Assembly (NCBI RefSeq): GCF_001941865.1
Contig: NZ_CP016162.1
Location: 1,798,001 to 1,862,000, forward strand
Length of the DNA stretch: 64,000 nucleotides
From: Pseudomonas alcaliphila JAB1
GTDB lineage: Bacteria; Pseudomonadota; Gammaproteobacteria; Pseudomonadales; Pseudomonadaceae
Direction of reading: 5' to 3'
The position numbers and the translations under genes were made by a program. The notes under the pieces are model-generated. The model had not been told where the DNA came from, searched no databases, and saw nothing but the letters and a program-made list of their open reading frames with translations. This document shows positions 55,549 through 62,846 of this stretch, piece after piece. Numbering within the stretch: position 1 is the first letter of the stretch; every line of letters starts with the position of its first letter.

Positions 55549-57321
55549 TCAACGCACCCGATCACGACTCTGTACCGCCAGGTCCAGCGCCTTCTGCATA
55601 TCCAGCCGCGCCGAGCGGCCCACGTCCTTGTCACTCATCTTGTAGTTGCGCTCCGATGGCAGGATCGGCGCGGTCAGGTCTTCGGCGTCCATCGGTTCGA
55701 AGTCGTAATCACCGCCGATGGTCATGGCGCTGCGCCGTAGCAGCATGCGTACCTGTTCCGGCTGCAGGCGCGGATTGATCGACAGCATGGCGGCGACCAC
55801 ACCGGTGACCAGGGGCGTGGCGTATGAGGTGCCACAATGCACCTCGCCGGTCGCATCGACCTCTTGGGTGGAAGCGCGGGCACAGGCGGCGGCGGTGATG
55901 TCGACGCGCATGTCGACGTTCGATGAGTCGCGTTTGACCACGTAAGTCGGGTCGTCGATTTCGGCCTCTTTTTCCTTGCTGCGCTGATGCCCGCCGACCA
56001 CCAGCAACTGCTCGGTAATGAACGAGGAGGGCAGGCGGTACTCGTCCCGACCGGAGAAGGACGAACCGTTGCCGGCGGAGTTGATCACCAGCACGTCCGG
56101 GTGTTCCTCGCGCAGCCACAGGAAGAACTCCTCCAGCAATTCTTCGTAGCCGCTCATGGCGATGCCGGAGCGCACCAGCGAATCGATCTCGTCGCCTTCG
56201 ACGTTGCGCGTGCCAACGCGGTGGATGCCCCAGCTCCAGTTGAGTACGCGTACGCCGTCTTCCACCAGGTTCACCGACGCGGCGATGTTGGCGGTGATGC
56301 CGGCGTCCGAGTTGCGCTCGACGATGATTTCGAAGCCCTGGCTGGCTTTGTCCAGGCCGCGCAGGAAGCCGGTGTTGCCGCCCTTGTCCCAGTGCGCGGC
56401 GAGAATCCCGGTCACGGTGCTGCCGTGGTTGTCGGGCTCGTCGGCATCACGCGCATAGACGCAGGTACGCGGTTTACCGTCGGGGCAGGCGCCGAGGTAG
56501 TCGGCGAAGTCGGGCGAATCGAAATCGACGTTGCGCTCGATCACGCCGACGCGAATCGGCTCGGCTTCGATGGGCGTCTCACCCGCCGGGATGCGTCGCT
56601 GGTAATAGTTCACCGCATCCATGAAGCGGTTCGCCGCCCACTCTTCGGAGTTCTTTTCCGGTTTATGTGCCGGCTGGCGGGCGGCCTCGCTTTCTTCGCC
56701 ACGCTCCGGTGCGCTTTCTTCCACCACCACAGCATCGACGCTGACTTCGTTGCCGATGCGCAGCACCAGCGCGTCACGTTCGGTCAGGTTCTTCACCGGC
56801 AGGCGCAGTTGGTAGACGTTCAGCGGTGGGATGGCGCCGACCACCTTGGCGTTGTATTTCTTCGCCAGACGCCTGGCCTCGTCGAGACCATCGTGGCTTT
56901 CCTCGATCAGCAGGCTGACCAGATCGACATAGGTGGTCAGGCCATCCATGTTCTTCGCCACTTCATCCGGGCCGGCAGCGAGCACATGGCTGCGATGCAG
57001 CGACAACCAGACCGGATTGCTGGCGCGCGAGCCGTCCTCCAGCCACAGCGGTGCGCTGCGATGTTCGTTGCTGTTCAACTGTAGGCGCAGGCCATCGCCA
57101 GTGCGCTTGACCGCCGAAGCGGGCAGGGTGTCATCGCCGAGCCGCAGCCTGGGCAGCTTCGCGCCAAGGCCACGCACCTGCATGCACCATTCCTGCTTTT
57201 CACTGGCGAGCAGGTCGCCGCAGCGTTGCAGGCTCTGGATGCGCAGCGGTTCCTGCGCGCTGGCAAGAGGGCTCAGCACGGCCATGACCAGGGCAGCGAG
57301 AAGGGGGCGGTTGAGCAGCAT
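55549..57321 (-). CDS. Exported subtilisin-like protein with Asp-to-Glu catalytic change
   Basis: Protein of 590 residues. Signal peptide LLNRPLLAALVMAVLSPLASA; a region of about 230 residues (pro- or accessory domain); then the S8 domain. His299 (NHGSTVTGILAAH), the oxyanion Asn (INSAGNGS) and the nucleophile Ser499 (GTSYATPLVTGVVAAML) are intact, but the catalytic Asp is Glu262 (VGVIERNVDFDSPDF where VIDTGVD is usual). I read the GAG codon at 56536-56538 directly. Start at ATG 57321. It may be a weakened or specialised protease, or non-catalytic. Divergent from the DUF1624 gene. Confidence 0.85.
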   Translation of the reverse strand: MLLNRPLLAALVMAVLSPLASAQEPLRIQSLQRCGDLLASEKQEWCMQVRGLGAKLPRLRLGDDTLPASAVKRTGDGLRLQLNSNEHRSAPLWLEDGSRASNPVWLSLHRSHVLAAGPDEVAKNMDGLTTYVDLVSLLIEESHDGLDEARRLAKKYNAKVVGAIPPLNVYQLRLPVKNLTERDALVLRIGNEVSVDAVVVEESAPERGEESEAARQPAHKPEKNSEEWAANRFMDAVNYYQRRIPAGETPIEAEPIRVGVIERNVDFDSPDFADYLGACPDGKPRTCVYARDADEPDNHGSTVTGILAAHWDKGGNTGFLRGLDKASQGFEIIVERNSDAGITANIAASVNLVEDGVRVLNWSWGIHRVGTRNVEGDEIDSLVRSGIAMSGYEELLEEFFLWLREEHPDVLVINSAGNGSSFSGRDEYRLPSSFITEQLLVVGGHQRSKEKEAEIDDPTYVVKRDSSNVDMRVDITAAACARASTQEVDATGEVHCGTSYATPLVTGVVAAMLSINPRLQPEQVRMLLRRSAMTIGGDYDFEPMDAEDLTAPILPSERNYKMSDKDVGRSARLDMQKALDLAVQSRDRVR

Positions 57322-57450
57322 GGGGCAGGGCCTCCGTGGCAAGTGTTCTGCCTTTTTCCGACTTTCTCCGCCGCGCTTCGTTCAGATGGGTTATGCCGTG
57401 TCGGTCGCGTGAGAATGTGCGCATCGGTCACAGCGCTTCGTCGATAAATC

Positions 57451-57463
57451 GTTATATTATTAC
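57451..57463. promoter_or_regulatory. Zur-type box before the DUF1624 gene
   Basis: GTTATATTATTAC agrees at all but one defined position with the zinc-repressor core GTTATANTATAAC. It is 32 bp before the DUF1624 ATG in the divergent gap with the subtilase, so it could serve either gene. A second box lies at 60972. Confidence 0.55.
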
Positions 57464-57494
57464 GTTTATTCACGCCCATAATTCGAAGCCTTTC

Positions 57495-58634
57495 ATGTCC
57501 TCCAATCGTCTGCTCTCGATCGACGCCCTGCGCGGCCTGGTCATCCTCTTCATGTTGCTCGATCACGTTCGTGAAACCTTCTACCTGCACCAGCAGGTCG
57601 GCGACCCAATGGACGTGACCGCTACTGATCCTGCGCTGTTCTTCAGCCGTACCCTGGCACATCTGTGCGCGCCGGTGTTCATCCTGCTCACCGGGCTTTC
57701 GGCGTTTCTCTATGGCGAGAAGCAGATGAGCCGAGCAGCGACCAGCGCCTTCCTGTTCAAGCGCGGGCTGTTTCTGGTGGTGCTGGAGTTCACCCTGGTC
57801 AACTTCGCCTGGACCTTCCAGTTCCCGCCCACGGTGATCTACCTGCAGGTGATCTGGGCCATCGGCCTGAGCATGCTGGCGCTCGCCGTGCTGCTGTGGC
57901 TGCCGCGAACGCTGCTGGCCGTGCTGGGCCTGGCGCTGGTGGCCGGGCACAACCTGCTCGATGGGCTGCACTTCGGCCCGGAGTCGGCGATGCACATCCC
58001 CTGGGCGGTGCTGCATGACCGCGGCTGGATCGAGTTTTCCGACACGCTGCGCCTGCGCACGTCGTACCCGGTGCTGCCGTGGATCGGGGTGATCGCCCTG
58101 GGCTATGTGATCGGCCCGTGGTTCCGCTGGACCAATGCGCCCGAGCAGCGCCTGCAATGGTTGCGTCGCGCCGGTTTCTCTGCGCTGGCGCTGTTCGTGA
58201 TACTGCGCCTGCTCAACGGCTATGGCGAAAAACCCTGGGCCGTGGAAGAAACCGCACTGCAAACGCTGATGGGCCTGTTCAACATCACCAAGTATCCGCC
58301 GTCGCTGCTGTTCCTGGCGCTGACGCTGGGCGTCGGCCTGTTGCTGCTGGCCTACTTCGAGCGCCGCAACGATGGACGCATGGTGCGCACCCTGGCTGTG
58401 TTCGGCAGCGCGCCGATGTTCTTCTACCTGCTGCACCTGTACGTGCTGAAGCTGCTCTACATCGCCGCCTTCGCCATCTGGGGCGCGAACCAGGGGCATT
58501 ACTTCGGCTTCGACTCGATGGGCTGGGTCTGGGTAGCGACGCTGGTGCTGACGCTGCTGCTGTTTGCGCCCACGCAGTGGTTCGCGCGGCTCAAGGCGCG
58601 GCGTCGCGACATTCGCTGGTTGAAGTACCTCTGA
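57495..58634 (+). CDS. DUF1624 multi-pass membrane protein
   Basis: Membrane protein of 379 residues with about ten helices. The start RLLSIDALRGLVILFMLLDHVRETFY is the DUF1624/heparan-alpha-glucosaminide N-acetyltransferase-like signature, with the conserved DALRG and DHVR. A later PVFILLTGLSAFLYG and FGSAPMFFYLLHLY also fit. Likely acyl transfer across the membrane, acceptor unknown. I chose ATG 57495; in-frame upstream starts have no family support. A Zur-like box just upstream suggests zinc-starvation control. Confidence 0.85.
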   Translation: MSSNRLLSIDALRGLVILFMLLDHVRETFYLHQQVGDPMDVTATDPALFFSRTLAHLCAPVFILLTGLSAFLYGEKQMSRAATSAFLFKRGLFLVVLEFTLVNFAWTFQFPPTVIYLQVIWAIGLSMLALAVLLWLPRTLLAVLGLALVAGHNLLDGLHFGPESAMHIPWAVLHDRGWIEFSDTLRLRTSYPVLPWIGVIALGYVIGPWFRWTNAPEQRLQWLRRAGFSALALFVILRLLNGYGEKPWAVEETALQTLMGLFNITKYPPSLLFLALTLGVGLLLLAYFERRNDGRMVRTLAVFGSAPMFFYLLHLYVLKLLYIAAFAIWGANQGHYFGFDSMGWVWVATLVLTLLLFAPTQWFARLKARRRDIRWLKYL

Positions 58635-58665
58635 GAGCGGCCGTCGTAGAGTGCGCTCGACATTG

Positions 58666-58679
58666 GCACGATGTCGTGC
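58666..58679. other. Short perfect palindrome
   Basis: GCACGA, TG, TCGTGC just after the DUF1624 gene. No T run. Unknown. Confidence 0.3.
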
Positions 58680-58681
58680 GT

Positions 58682-58743
58682 TGTAGGAGCCCGCTTGCGG
58701 GCGATGGCTGACTGACGCGATCGCCGGCAAGCCGGCTCCTACA
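58682..58743. repeat. REP element
   Basis: TGTAGGAGCC (58682-58691) and GGCTCCTACA (58734-58743) with inner CGCTTGCGGGCGA and TCGCCGGCAAGCC arms: a classical Pseudomonas REP, between two convergent genes. Confidence 0.88.
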
Positions 58744-58779
58744 GGTCGAGTTGCGGAGTCTTTTCCGCGCGGCTGCGGC

Positions 58780-60834
58780 TTACAGCTTCATGTTCACCGA
58801 CAGATAGGCCGAGCGACCTGGGGCAGGGGAGAACATCGGTTGTTCGTCGCCAGCGGCCCAGAAGAAGTTGTCGAACCACACGTATTCATAGTCGCGGTCG
58901 GTCAGGTTCTTCATCTGCAGGTCAAGGCTGGTGGTGGCCGAAACCTGATAGCGCACGTTGGCGTCGAGCACCGCGAAGCCGCCGTACTTGCCTTGCTGGT
59001 TCAGCTCATCAATGTAGTAGTCGCCCTGGGCGCGGGCCGACAGGCCGAAGCGCCAGGCATCGTTGAACTGATAGTCGACGCCTGCATTGCTGATGTAGCG
59101 AGGCGTGGAGAACACCTCCTTGCCCGCCAGCGACTGCCCGCCAGCGGTGAACGCGCTGACCACCTTGGCTTCCTGGATGGCGTGCGAGCCCCACACCGTC
59201 CACTGGTCATTCAGTTGTGCGGTGAGTTGCATGTCGATGCCGCGACGCTTGGTTTCACCCAGGCCGACGGTGGTGCCGGTGCTGGGCATGTTGGCCACTT
59301 CGTCGGTGGCTTCCTGTTGCCACACGGCGATGCGCGCCTCCGAGCCGGCGAAGGGTTTGAACTTCACCCCCACTTCCTTGCCGGTGTTGATCGACGGTTT
59401 ATACGAGGCCTGGCCGGCTGTCATGTAGGCCGGTGCGGTGGAGCCGGTGAGGATCTGGAAGGTGCGCCCCCAGTTGGCGTAGACGTTGATATCCGGGGTG
59501 ATGCTGTACACCACGCTGAGCTTGGGCTGCTCGATCCAGCCGTAGTCCTGCAGTTCGGCCTTCTCGCCGTTCATCAGCTCGGTATTACCGGAGAACTTGT
59601 CGACGCGGTACGCCGGAATGATCTTGAGCTGCTCGATGGGCTGGATGATCGCCTGGGCATAGGCGCCAGTGTTGTACAGCGTGTAGCTGTCGTCGTTTTG
59701 TGTGCGTGCCGGCGGCGCATCGAAATCAGTGGGGATGCCGAAGTTGTAGCGATAGCGGCGGTATTCGTTGTTCTGCTGCTCGTAGTTGATGCCGCCGTCG
59801 AGGGTCAGCATCTCGTGGGCGCGCCAGGTCAGGTTGCTCAGCACGCCGGTCTGGCGCTCTTCCCACTGGCGGCGCTGACGCGGGGCATTGCCGACCGGGT
59901 AGCTGGTGAAGGTCACGGTGCGGTCATCGTCGTAGCTGTTGTAGTACAGCTTGTTGCTCAGGCTCAGGTCGTCGCTGAGCTGGAAGTCGGCATGCGCGCT
60001 AAGGTGCTTCATGTCGCGGTCGTCGCCATCGTTGGCGTTCTTCTCCGGCGACTGCGAGCGGCTCGCGGCCAGCTCCTGCGCGGTGAGAAAACCCGGCTCC
60101 TCGGCCTGGTGGTGGTAGAGGCGGGCGATCACGCCGAGCTTCATGGTCTGCTCGTCATCGGTGACGAACCATTTGCCGCCCAGGGAATACTTGTTGGAGT
60201 TGCTGTGGTCGCGGAAACCGTCGGAATCCTGCTTGGCCAGAAAGTAGTTTTGCGCGAAGTTGCCTTCCTCGTGGCCGATGGCCAGCTTCAATTCACGGGT
60301 GTTGAAGCTGCCGTAGGTCAGGCGGCCGTCGGTGTAGTTGCCGCCCTGACGGGTGACGAAATTGATGTTGCCGCCGATGTTGTGCAGGCCGTAGCGCGGG
60401 TCATTGGTGCCGCGCACCACCTCGATGTAGTCGATGTCCAGCGGGAAGATCATGTCGATGAAGCGCTGGTTGCCGCTGTTGACGTTGCTCGGCACGCCGT
60501 CGATCAGCGTCTTGATGCCATTGATGTAGCCCTCGCCGTTGAAGGCGCGGAAGGTCACCTTGCCGGATTCGGCGCCCATACGCGTCTCGGTCAGCTGGAT
60601 GCCGGGCATCTGGCCTACCAGCTCCCAGCTGTTCATCACGTTCTTATCCTCGATCTTGTCACTGCCCATGATGTCGACCGAACTCAGGATGCTGTCGGTG
60701 CGTAGCGTGCCGCTGGCCTCGGGGGTGACGTAGACCGAGCCGAGCGAAACGGTGGAGTTGCCGGAGGAGGCGGCGTGAATCTGAGGCGTGACCAGGGCGG
60801 TCATGACGGCGAGGGAGGCCGAAGTGGCTTTCAT
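58780..60834 (-). CDS. TonB-dependent outer-membrane receptor
   Basis: Receptor of 684 residues. Signal peptide (MKATSASLAVMTALVTPQIHA), a TonB-box-like VYVTPE, a plug with NSWELVGQMPGIQLTETR, IKTLIDGVPSN, IDYIEVVRGTNDPRYGLHNIGGNI, then a beta barrel with NVYANWGRTFQI, and a last strand AYLSVNMKL. Substrate is not readable from motifs. A Zur-like box about 140 bp upstream suggests uptake of zinc or a zinc chelate; I recall a zinc-repressed receptor of this general type in P. aeruginosa (PA1922). AGGA ribosome site on minus. Confidence 0.88.
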   Translation of the reverse strand: MKATSASLAVMTALVTPQIHAASSGNSTVSLGSVYVTPEASGTLRTDSILSSVDIMGSDKIEDKNVMNSWELVGQMPGIQLTETRMGAESGKVTFRAFNGEGYINGIKTLIDGVPSNVNSGNQRFIDMIFPLDIDYIEVVRGTNDPRYGLHNIGGNINFVTRQGGNYTDGRLTYGSFNTRELKLAIGHEEGNFAQNYFLAKQDSDGFRDHSNSNKYSLGGKWFVTDDEQTMKLGVIARLYHHQAEEPGFLTAQELAASRSQSPEKNANDGDDRDMKHLSAHADFQLSDDLSLSNKLYYNSYDDDRTVTFTSYPVGNAPRQRRQWEERQTGVLSNLTWRAHEMLTLDGGINYEQQNNEYRRYRYNFGIPTDFDAPPARTQNDDSYTLYNTGAYAQAIIQPIEQLKIIPAYRVDKFSGNTELMNGEKAELQDYGWIEQPKLSVVYSITPDINVYANWGRTFQILTGSTAPAYMTAGQASYKPSINTGKEVGVKFKPFAGSEARIAVWQQEATDEVANMPSTGTTVGLGETKRRGIDMQLTAQLNDQWTVWGSHAIQEAKVVSAFTAGGQSLAGKEVFSTPRYISNAGVDYQFNDAWRFGLSARAQGDYYIDELNQQGKYGGFAVLDANVRYQVSATTSLDLQMKNLTDRDYEYVWFDNFFWAAGDEQPMFSPAPGRSAYLSVNMKL

Positions 60835-61178
60835 GGGTATTCCTAGCGTTGCATTTTCTAAGTGGGGGGAGGGTGTTGCGCTGGCTTGCTGCGCGGGCTG
60901 GCGCGTCTCCAGGCGGCAGCGGGTTGTCCGGTCGGCCGGAACGTATCGACGAATTATCTCTAATTCAAGACGTTATATCATAACAATTCTGATACGCTCG
61001 ACCAGTTCGAAATCAAGCTATGGGGCCGTAAGGGCTCTGGCTAGGGCCGTCTGAGGCTGAGCAATCGGCGCAACGGCCGATGAGCATTGGCCTGACCTGC
61101 ACGAACGATTAGACGCCAGCCCGCCAATGGCGTATCAATATCAGACGTCTTCCGCGTTTCTATCCAAACAGAATCACT
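60835..61178. other. Divergent gap, receptor/cyclase
   Basis: 344 bp between the receptor and the cyclase gene. It holds the Zur-like box (60972-60984) and, 5 bp to its left, a second palindrome GAATTA, TCTC, TAATTC (60951-60966). I see no convincing -35/-10 pair for either gene and no ORF. Confidence 0.5.
60972..60984. promoter_or_regulatory. Zur-type box before the TonB receptor
   Basis: GTTATATCATAAC, one mismatch to GTTATANTATAAC and with full GTTAT/ATAAC symmetry. It lies 138 bp before the receptor ATG on minus. Confidence 0.6.
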
Positions 61179-62846
61179 ATGCTGCCCCTGTGTTCGGTCA
61201 ATGCGCCCAGCAGTGCCAATGATGAGCGGCTCGATGGCTTAGTGCGCCTGCTTGGCCGGTATTTCGATTCGGCCGCCGTGCTGGTTTCCGGTGCCGGCTC
61301 TGCGCGCCATATCTGGGCCAGCCCTGGCCTGAGCGATGTGGCGAAGATCATCGGCATCAGCGAAACCACGCCCACCACGCTCGTCTGGCCACTGCAGGCG
61401 CAAACAGGCGCCCGGCTCGGCACGCTGTACCTGCATTTCGACCGGCCACATACACTCGATGCCAAACAGCGCGAAGCTCTGCTGGATTTCGCCGCCCTGG
61501 CCCTCGATCTACTGGCACGCGAGACCGACGAAGCCCGGCAGCGTCATGAGATCGCCGCCCTGCGCGATAGTGAACGACGCATGGCGCTGGCCATCGCCGG
61601 TAGTGGCACCGGGATCTGGGACCGCGACATCAGCAGCGGCGAGATTTACTACTCCAGCAGTTGGAAGGCGCTGCTCGGCTATGCCGACCACGAAATCGGC
61701 AATCGCATCGAAGAGAGCTATACCCGCGTACATCCAGCCGACCTCGACTACGTGCGCGCGACCATCCAGGCACACCTGGATCAGCGTACCGATGCCTATG
61801 AAGTGGAGCACCGCCTGCGTTGCCGCAACGGCCAGTACAAATGGGTGTGCAGCCGCGGCAAGGTGGTCGAGCGCGACAAGCATGGCAAACCGCTGCGAAT
61901 GATCGGCACCACCACCGACATCACCGCCATGCGCCGCCTGTCCGAGCAGGTACAGCAGACCGCTACCCTGATGACCGACCTGACCAATGAAATCCCCGGC
62001 ATGGTCTTCCAGGTCCGCCGGCAGAGCGATGGCAAGTACGCCGTTACCTACGCCAGCGCCGGCGCGCAAGCCATCTGTGGCCTCAGCGCCATGCAACTGA
62101 TGCAGGACGCTGAGGCGCTGACCACCATCGTTCACTCGGATGACCGCATGGCCTTCATCGATTCCCTGCAGCTATCGGCCGAGGAGTTGACGGACTGGTA
62201 TCTGGAGTTTCGCGTGCAGGTGCCGGGGCGTGAAGTCGCCTGGTGCCAGGGTGAAGCCTGCCCGCGCCGCGAAGCAGACGGCAGCGTGATCTGGCATGGC
62301 TTCATGACTGACGTGACCGAACGCAAGCAGATCGAGGCCGAGCTGCAGGCCTTCGCCACCACCGACTTCCTCACCCAGCTCGCCAACCGCAGGCACTTCA
62401 TGTGTCAGCTCGAGGCAGAGCTGGCGCGCCTGCAACGCAGCCCTGAACAGAGTGCGGCGATCCTGATGTTCGACCTGGACTACTTCAAGACCATCAACGA
62501 CCGCTGGGGCCACGATGTCGGCGACCAGGCGCTGCGCCATTTCGCGGGAATTCTAAGCAGCCAGCTGCGCAAGACCGACACCGCCGGGCGCCTCGGTGGC
62601 GAAGAGTTCGCCGTGGTGCTCAGCGACGCGAATCTGGACAAGGCCATGCACTTCGCCACGCGCATCCAGAGCGAACTGGCCAGGGCGCCGATCCTGCATG
62701 CCGGGGAACCGATCTTCCTCGCCGTCAGCGTCGGCATCTCCTCGCTCAATGCCAGCGATGCCAGCGTCGAGGCCGCCCTGTCGCGCAGCGATATCGCCCT
62801 GTACTGCGCCAAGCGCGGCGGGCGAAATCGCATCGAGCATCATTGA
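61179..62846 (+). CDS. Diguanylate cyclase, GAF-PAS-PAS-GGDEF
   Basis: Soluble sensor of 555 residues. N-terminal GAF-like part (about 15-115), a PAS_3 domain (about 130-250; SGTGIWDRDISSGEIYYSS, VCSRGKVVERDKHGKPLRMIGTTTDIT), a second PAS (about 265-385), and a GGDEF domain with the active GGEEF at 473-477 and DLDYFKTINDRWGHDVGDQ. The inhibitory I-site RxxD is present (Arg464-Asp467), five residues before the active site. No membrane helix and no EAL. It should make cyclic-di-GMP with product feedback. The signal is unknown. No strong ribosome site. Confidence 0.9.
   Translation: MLPLCSVNAPSSANDERLDGLVRLLGRYFDSAAVLVSGAGSARHIWASPGLSDVAKIIGISETTPTTLVWPLQAQTGARLGTLYLHFDRPHTLDAKQREALLDFAALALDLLARETDEARQRHEIAALRDSERRMALAIAGSGTGIWDRDISSGEIYYSSSWKALLGYADHEIGNRIEESYTRVHPADLDYVRATIQAHLDQRTDAYEVEHRLRCRNGQYKWVCSRGKVVERDKHGKPLRMIGTTTDITAMRRLSEQVQQTATLMTDLTNEIPGMVFQVRRQSDGKYAVTYASAGAQAICGLSAMQLMQDAEALTTIVHSDDRMAFIDSLQLSAEELTDWYLEFRVQVPGREVAWCQGEACPRREADGSVIWHGFMTDVTERKQIEAELQAFATTDFLTQLANRRHFMCQLEAELARLQRSPEQSAAILMFDLDYFKTINDRWGHDVGDQALRHFAGILSSQLRKTDTAGRLGGEEFAVVLSDANLDKAMHFATRIQSELARAPILHAGEPIFLAVSVGISSLNASDASVEAALSRSDIALYCAKRGGRNRIEHH

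Follow-up and report, generated by a model that had tools for sequence, protein, structure and literature searches.

In a 64,000-nucleotide stretch of the Pseudomonas alcaliphila JAB1 genome (contig NZ_CP016162.1, positions 1,798,001 to 1,862,000; the window), a gene of the DUF1624 family and a convergent gene for a TonB-dependent receptor are each preceded by a box that resembles the binding sites of the zinc repressor Zur. Judged by comparison with related sequences, zinc-repressor control of both genes, as the original prediction had it, is strongly supported: we consider it very probable for the DUF1624 gene and almost as probable for the receptor gene. The whole is probably a zinc-starvation locus under Zur, in which the receptor would import a chelate and the DUF1624 protein would acylate an acceptor in the periplasm.

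Zur-like boxes in the window and in the host genome

Box 1 (GTTATATTATTACG, window positions 57451 to 57464, plus strand) is supported by its match to the consensus, its matrix score and its conservation. Its 13-mer, GTTATATTATTAC (57451-57463, plus strand), is separated by 31 bases from the ATG at 57495 of the DUF1624 gene (57495 to 58634, plus strand; 379 aa), which Pfam assigns to DUF1624/HGSNAT_cat (PF07786) and which is predicted to encode a transmembrane acyltransferase. Box 2 is palindromic (GTTATATCATAACA in plus-strand letters, 60972 to 60985, assigned to the minus strand) and is supported by the matrix, its core and its conservation; its 13-mer, GTTATATCATAAC (60972-60984), precedes by 137 bases the ATG (60834) of the receptor gene (58780 to 60834, minus strand; 684 aa), recognized by the Pfam domains Plug and TonB_dep_Rec_b-barrel. 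Both positions agree with the original prediction, as does its statement that each box departs from the core GTTATANTATAAC at a single position.

The published degenerate Pseudomonas Zur consensus, GWWAYWNNNTWHCR (PMC10393844), matches the window at boxes 1 and 2 only, and at box 1 on both strands. By itself this consensus is weak evidence, because the reversed pattern matches the host genome (5.34 Mb, a single contig) just as often (79 matches against 76); the case for the boxes is built instead on the quality of the core, on position and on conservation. A 17-bp Zur matrix was built from seven recognized Zur sites, four from the host genome and three from the folE2 boxes of relatives, with boxes 1 and 2 excluded. 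In the window this matrix ranked box 2 first (24.5) and box 1 second (20.8), followed by a third site at 8.6, in keeping with the earlier claim that the pair exceeds chance. The seven training sites span 15.3 to 27.1 on this scale, and the two boxes thus score like the znuA/zur, folE2 and zrgA sites, a favourable outcome for the ranking check proposed with the original prediction.

Across the host genome, GTTATANNATAAC occurs at three exact places (box 2, the folE2/CobW gap and another TonB receptor) and at nine places with one mismatch. Four of these 12 best places adjoin recognized Zur-type genes, namely the folE2/CobW gap, the znuA/zur gap, the zrgA promoter and a second znuA; the remaining eight comprise boxes 1 and 2, the other TonB receptor and five places elsewhere (L004, L006, L008, L009 and L011) with no recognizable zinc gene among their open reading frames (ORFs). 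We took the FUR-family gene next to znuA as zur; two further FUR-family genes are present, and the zur candidate shares its genome with boxes of the same type at folE2, zrgA and the two znuA genes. The box type is that of the P. aeruginosa Np20/Zur regulon (Ellison 2013, Pederick 2015), with which the host also has boxed znuA/zur, folE2 and zrgA in common. The excerpts of PMC4542158, PMC10393844 and PMC6103462 on that regulon do not name a DUF1624/HGSNAT gene, and the review lists of Pseudomonas Zur targets, as excerpted from the latter two, omit it. Among the top matches of wider literature searches we found no publication tying the gene to Zur, although it may already figure in the P. protegens zinc transcriptome (Lim 2013).

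Conservation of the DUF1624 box

Our first ortholog set consisted of the best 80 of 271 DUF1624 loci, 79 of them with sufficient upstream sequence; the nearest orthologs in it, at 96-97% protein identity, are from P. chengduensis, P. toyotomiensis and Pseudomonas sp. ZH-FAD. A Zur box was found within 160 bp upstream of DUF1624 itself in 58 of the 79, and a further 18 sit behind a Zur-boxed folE2, which brings the total to 76. The reversed pattern gave one match in 79, and mono-shuffled upstream regions gave a mean of 0.78 and a maximum of 3. When the matrix was applied to the 60 loci without folE2, 42 had the best site of the whole locus in the 150 bp before DUF1624 and 17 had the second-best there, with L070 as the exception. 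The second set comprised 60 stretches, chosen rather than drawn at random, from the 117 family genomes that carry DUF1624; in 54 of them a DUF1624 gene is present at 50% identity or more, and 49 of these have their own box by pattern (reversed control, 0). The matrix placed the site at rank 1 in 49, at rank 2 in one and at neither in four. In loci with their own box, the distance from the site to the aligned start ranges from about 22 to 118 bp; the letters vary, the Zur-like palindrome is kept, and in the mendocina group box 1 is retained at about -30. The conservation check proposed with the original prediction was thus borne out for this gene, and likewise for the receptor (below).

Beyond the Pseudomonadaceae, a DUF1624 gene was present in four of 369 genomes drawn from the class besides the host (E <= 1e-60). 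In three of the four, no site of the 13-kb locus scores higher on the matrix than the one directly upstream of DUF1624, at 18.5, 14.3 and a weak 11.6 (next-best site in that last locus, 9.6); upstream of the fourth and most distant ortholog (L207/L211, 37-39% identity) a matrix site was absent.

The TonB receptor

The receptor carries the domains Plug (PF07715, 63.5 bits) and TonB_dep_Rec_b-barrel (PF00593, 147.8 bits), and a search of PDB sequences matched it weakly to receptors for siderophores, citrate and haem. The ZnuD model NF038289 was missing from its 18 NCBIfam matches at E <= 0.001, and its AlphaFold2 model was poor (pLDDT 50.8). Matches to it were found in 65 of 298 family genomes (E <= 1e-150), 25 at an identity of at least 71% and 40 at about 44-46%. 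DUF1624 is present in 24 of those 25, compared to 117 of the 298 overall (Fisher 6e-10, relatedness ignored). In these 24 genomes the pair is convergent in 14, divergent with a common gap in six and apart in four, so that the genes are adjacent in 20. Of 30 receptor loci, 27 have a box no more than 260 bp upstream; the exceptions are L070, L144 and L146, the last of which has a box at -253 when counted from its own end. Where the receptor stands apart from DUF1624 (L151, L153, L155 and L157) it is still boxed in all four.

The single genome that has the receptor at this identity and lacks DUF1624, G159, is informative about the ligand. There, the next genes downstream on the receptor's strand encode a binding protein that is NikA-like, and more weakly CntA-like, and a NikB-like permease (L159:1224-4952), assignments whose scores fall below the NCBI equivalog cut-offs. 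The NikA-like family occurs in 22 of 298 family genomes (E <= 1e-120; loci L215-L235), with a matrix site of at least 14.9 within 400 bp upstream in 18 and a receptor-like gene directly upstream in the other four. Since NikA-like importer genes trail the receptor in G159 and their family mostly has Zur-like sites upstream, the receptor's ligand is likely a metal chelate. The NikA-like family, with its Zur-like sites, is in its own right a candidate zinc-chelate importer.

The DUF1624 protein

The DUF1624 protein matches PF07786 with 57.4 bits, compared to a curated cut-off of 22. Comparison of its predicted fold gave a match to residues 265-660 of HGSNAT at 18% identity, while PDB searches with the sequence (E <= 1) and with its profile (E <= 10) gave zero matches, so the likeness to HGSNAT is known from the fold comparison. 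His32 is invariant in all 44 rows of the alignment. The predicted fold lends support to the earlier description of a membrane acyltransferase-like protein, and we consider it probable that the protein has acyltransferase activity.

Among bacterial proteins, NagX, a putative transmembrane transacetylase, shares the Pfam domain and has a similar length of 309-395 aa; it is a glucosamine-use gene product often encoded in chitin operons, in contrast to the Zur-like control seen here (PMC9007349). A NagX-type role in glucosamine use finds no support among the window neighbours: Pfam scans of nine window proteins, the DUF1624 protein and the receptor included, detected no nag or chitin families. The human lysosomal acetyltransferase HGSNAT differs in being longer and in its biology.

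Changing neighbourhoods of DUF1624

In 19 loci of the first set, which we take to belong mostly to the syringae group, folE2 precedes DUF1624, in four directly and in 15 with an intervening gene, which in L044, the copy that was scanned, encodes a hexapeptide-repeat protein. A Zur box precedes folE2 in 18 of the 19, which refutes the idea that syringae-type loci lack Zur control, as DUF1624 there trails a Zur-boxed folE2. In P. aeruginosa, folE2 is zinc-responsive and has a putative Zur site, and in PAO1 it is followed by a gene for a putative gamma-carbonic dehydratase, both being strongly induced by the loss of zinc uptake (PMC4542158).

Ten of the 19 folE2 loci, and L183 as well, have a TonB receptor of a second type in the vicinity of DUF1624, Zur-boxed in all 11. 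An importer composed of a binding protein (PBP), a FecCD permease and an ABC ATPase adjoins DUF1624 in six first-set loci, and an OprD-family porin is near it in 10 (at least 63% identity to the probe), these being partly the same loci. Five of the OprD genes are divergent to DUF1624 with a Zur box inside the intervening gap; for same-strand OprD and PBP genes near DUF1624 we found no Zur box of their own. Many loci showed no match nearby to any of the probes, be it receptor, importer or porin. DUF1624 has thus changed its surroundings several times and has, for the most part, remained behind a Zur box. The importer beside some DUF1624 loci recalls PA2911-PA2914, a Zur-regulated TonB receptor and ABC importer for a chelate, reported for cobalt-pyochelin (PMC11481552); the likeness to the window receptor and those importers is one of description.

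Some neighbourhoods deserve mention on their own account. In L088, L089 and L098-L100, genes for a PBP, a FecCD permease, an ABC ATPase and an OprD porin follow the start of DUF1624 at a distance of about 1.4-5 kb, in some loci with a cupredoxin gene; no Zur box was found before the binding-protein gene. P. khorasanensis has a pqiA-like gene (PF04403; L050:5157-5753, minus strand) divergent to DUF1624, and because the gap that holds a Zur-like box is common to both, this envelope gene might be Zur-controlled as well.

Three further sites of the host genome were also noted. The second znuA has its own Zur-like box, GTTACAAGATAAC (L007, G000:C1:2512697-2512709), and adjoins ORFs that by eye resemble conjugation genes, so a mobile element may carry this zinc-uptake gene. 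An exact GTTATAACATAAC box lies at the start region of another TonB receptor gene (L003, G000:C1:5290839-5290851), and GTAATAACATTACA (L021, G000:C1:989270-989283) adjoins an ORF that reads like a siderophore-type TonB receptor and by eye is similar to the second receptor type, as in L183, which is Zur-boxed near DUF1624 in other lineages.

Within the window, the boxed genes are flanked by a subtilase gene (55549-57327, minus strand), divergent to the DUF1624 gene, and by a gene for a PAS-GGDEF protein (61179-62846, plus strand), divergent to the receptor gene. Scans returned one promoter-like site (0.8 expected) and five terminator-like sites (3.7 expected), nothing beyond chance in either case.

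Proposed explanation and alternatives

When zinc is ample, zinc-bound Zur would occupy boxes 1 and 2 and keep both genes off, and when zinc is scarce both would be released. The receptor would then bring a metal chelate through the outer membrane, and the DUF1624 protein, as an inner-membrane acyltransferase of the HGSNAT/NagX type, would pass an acetyl or other acyl group, taken from acyl-CoA in the cytoplasm, to a periplasmic acceptor with an amino or hydroxyl group. Sequence, comparison and prediction show the boxes, where they lie, that they are conserved, and the fold; from these we infer the repression, the catalysis and the periplasmic acceptor. As to which molecule the acceptor is, the likeliest choices, at a guess, are an amino-sugar of the envelope and the metal ligand that is imported. 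The import-system neighbours make the ligand the first candidate to examine. We think it rather unlikely that the imported ligand is the acceptor. Still less probable, in our view, is release of metal driven by acylation, in which the Zur-induced DUF1624 protein would N-acetylate, on the periplasmic side, the amines with which an imported chelator holds its zinc, breaking up the chelate and freeing the zinc for ZnuA/ZrgA. Zinc, unlike iron, cannot be released from a chelate by reduction. Such a mechanism, if true, would explain why DUF1624 recurs near receptors, porins and chelate importers.

Several observations weigh against the proposed explanation. By pattern, three of the 79 first-set loci (L051, L070 and L097) have no box, with the matrix search placing a site at -120 in L051 and the best site of L070 at -397; in the second set five of 54 fail (L144, L173, L194, L198 and L201), of which L144 and L201 have matrix sites further upstream, at about -395 and at -314, and L173 and L198 have none upstream of DUF1624. 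The two sets overlap in species, and since the genomes are related the box counts are not independent. Column-permuted matrices (n = 40) likewise prefer the AT-rich upstream region, with a mean of 7.4 of 60 loci at rank 1; their maxima were 20 of 60 at rank 1 and 27 of 60 at ranks 1 and 2, compared to 59 of 60 at these two ranks for the Zur matrix. The candidate catalytic histidine, His32, is placed near His297 of HGSNAT by range offset only, and it is absent from the distant homolog L203 (44% identity). The folE2 neighbourhood is one of zinc sparing and not of transport, and so does not speak for an imported ligand. Finally, 93 of the 117 genomes with DUF1624 have no match to this receptor at an identity of at least 71%. 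The original prediction that the two proteins work together is thus supported only in part, by the nearly constant and mostly adjacent DUF1624 partner of the receptor. We hold a shared pathway only tentatively, as something that could well prove wrong.

The alternative that survives best, and that we regard as a serious if not the favoured one, is that DUF1624 acylates the cell envelope under zinc starvation, for instance amino-sugars of peptidoglycan or lipopolysaccharide, the nearness of the receptor reflecting common Zur control only. The precedent of the HGSNAT family favours an envelope amino-sugar as acceptor, since HGSNAT works on glucosamine amines and NagX has been proposed to do likewise (PMC9007349, PMC11357348). 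An envelope role would also suit the many loci without transport probes and the 19 behind folE2, and the P. aeruginosa zinc-starvation cluster contains an envelope enzyme, AmiA (PMC4542158). On the other hand, the recognized zinc or transport neighbours of DUF1624 are often import parts, including two receptor types, OprD porins and the PBP-FecCD importer.

Control of both genes by another regulator with a similar palindrome, such as Fur or a further FUR-family member, is improbable. Short AT-rich palindromes serve many regulators, and the host has three FUR-family genes; however, the boxes score like recognized Zur targets, on a matrix made of Zur sites only, Zur being the one motif scored, and elsewhere DUF1624 stands behind a Zur-boxed folE2, a gene that responds to zinc in P. 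aeruginosa (PMC4542158). We give equally little credence to the boxes serving chiefly the other neighbours. Box 1 does lie between the subtilase gene and DUF1624, and box 2 between the receptor and PAS-GGDEF genes, and because both flanking genes are divergent to the boxed ones the boxes might act on them too; yet the box follows DUF1624 where the upstream neighbours differ, and the receptor is boxed apart from DUF1624 as well, and on this retention across changed neighbourhoods we set the idea aside. Chance matches in AT-rich gaps can be dismissed almost entirely, for although the unspecific consensus, the five zinc-gene-free core matches and the upstream preference of permuted matrices would allow for them, the reversed, shuffled and permuted controls fall far below the 58 of 79 own boxes and the 59 of 60 matrix placements.

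If Zur control of the locus is correct, the zinc-starvation response predicted for many Pseudomonadaceae gains an enzyme class, the transmembrane acyltransferases. DUF1624 has retained Zur boxes upstream while its neighbourhood changed several times, and such retention usually signals a genuine role in zinc starvation. The link to a NikA-like importer also places a little-described TonB receptor in the context of chelate uptake. Two questions become testable, namely whether zinc-starved Pseudomonas remodels its envelope by acylation and how zinc, which cannot be reduced, is released from imported chelates. The findings suggest that zinc-starved cells may chemically modify an envelope component or the zinc carriers that they import.

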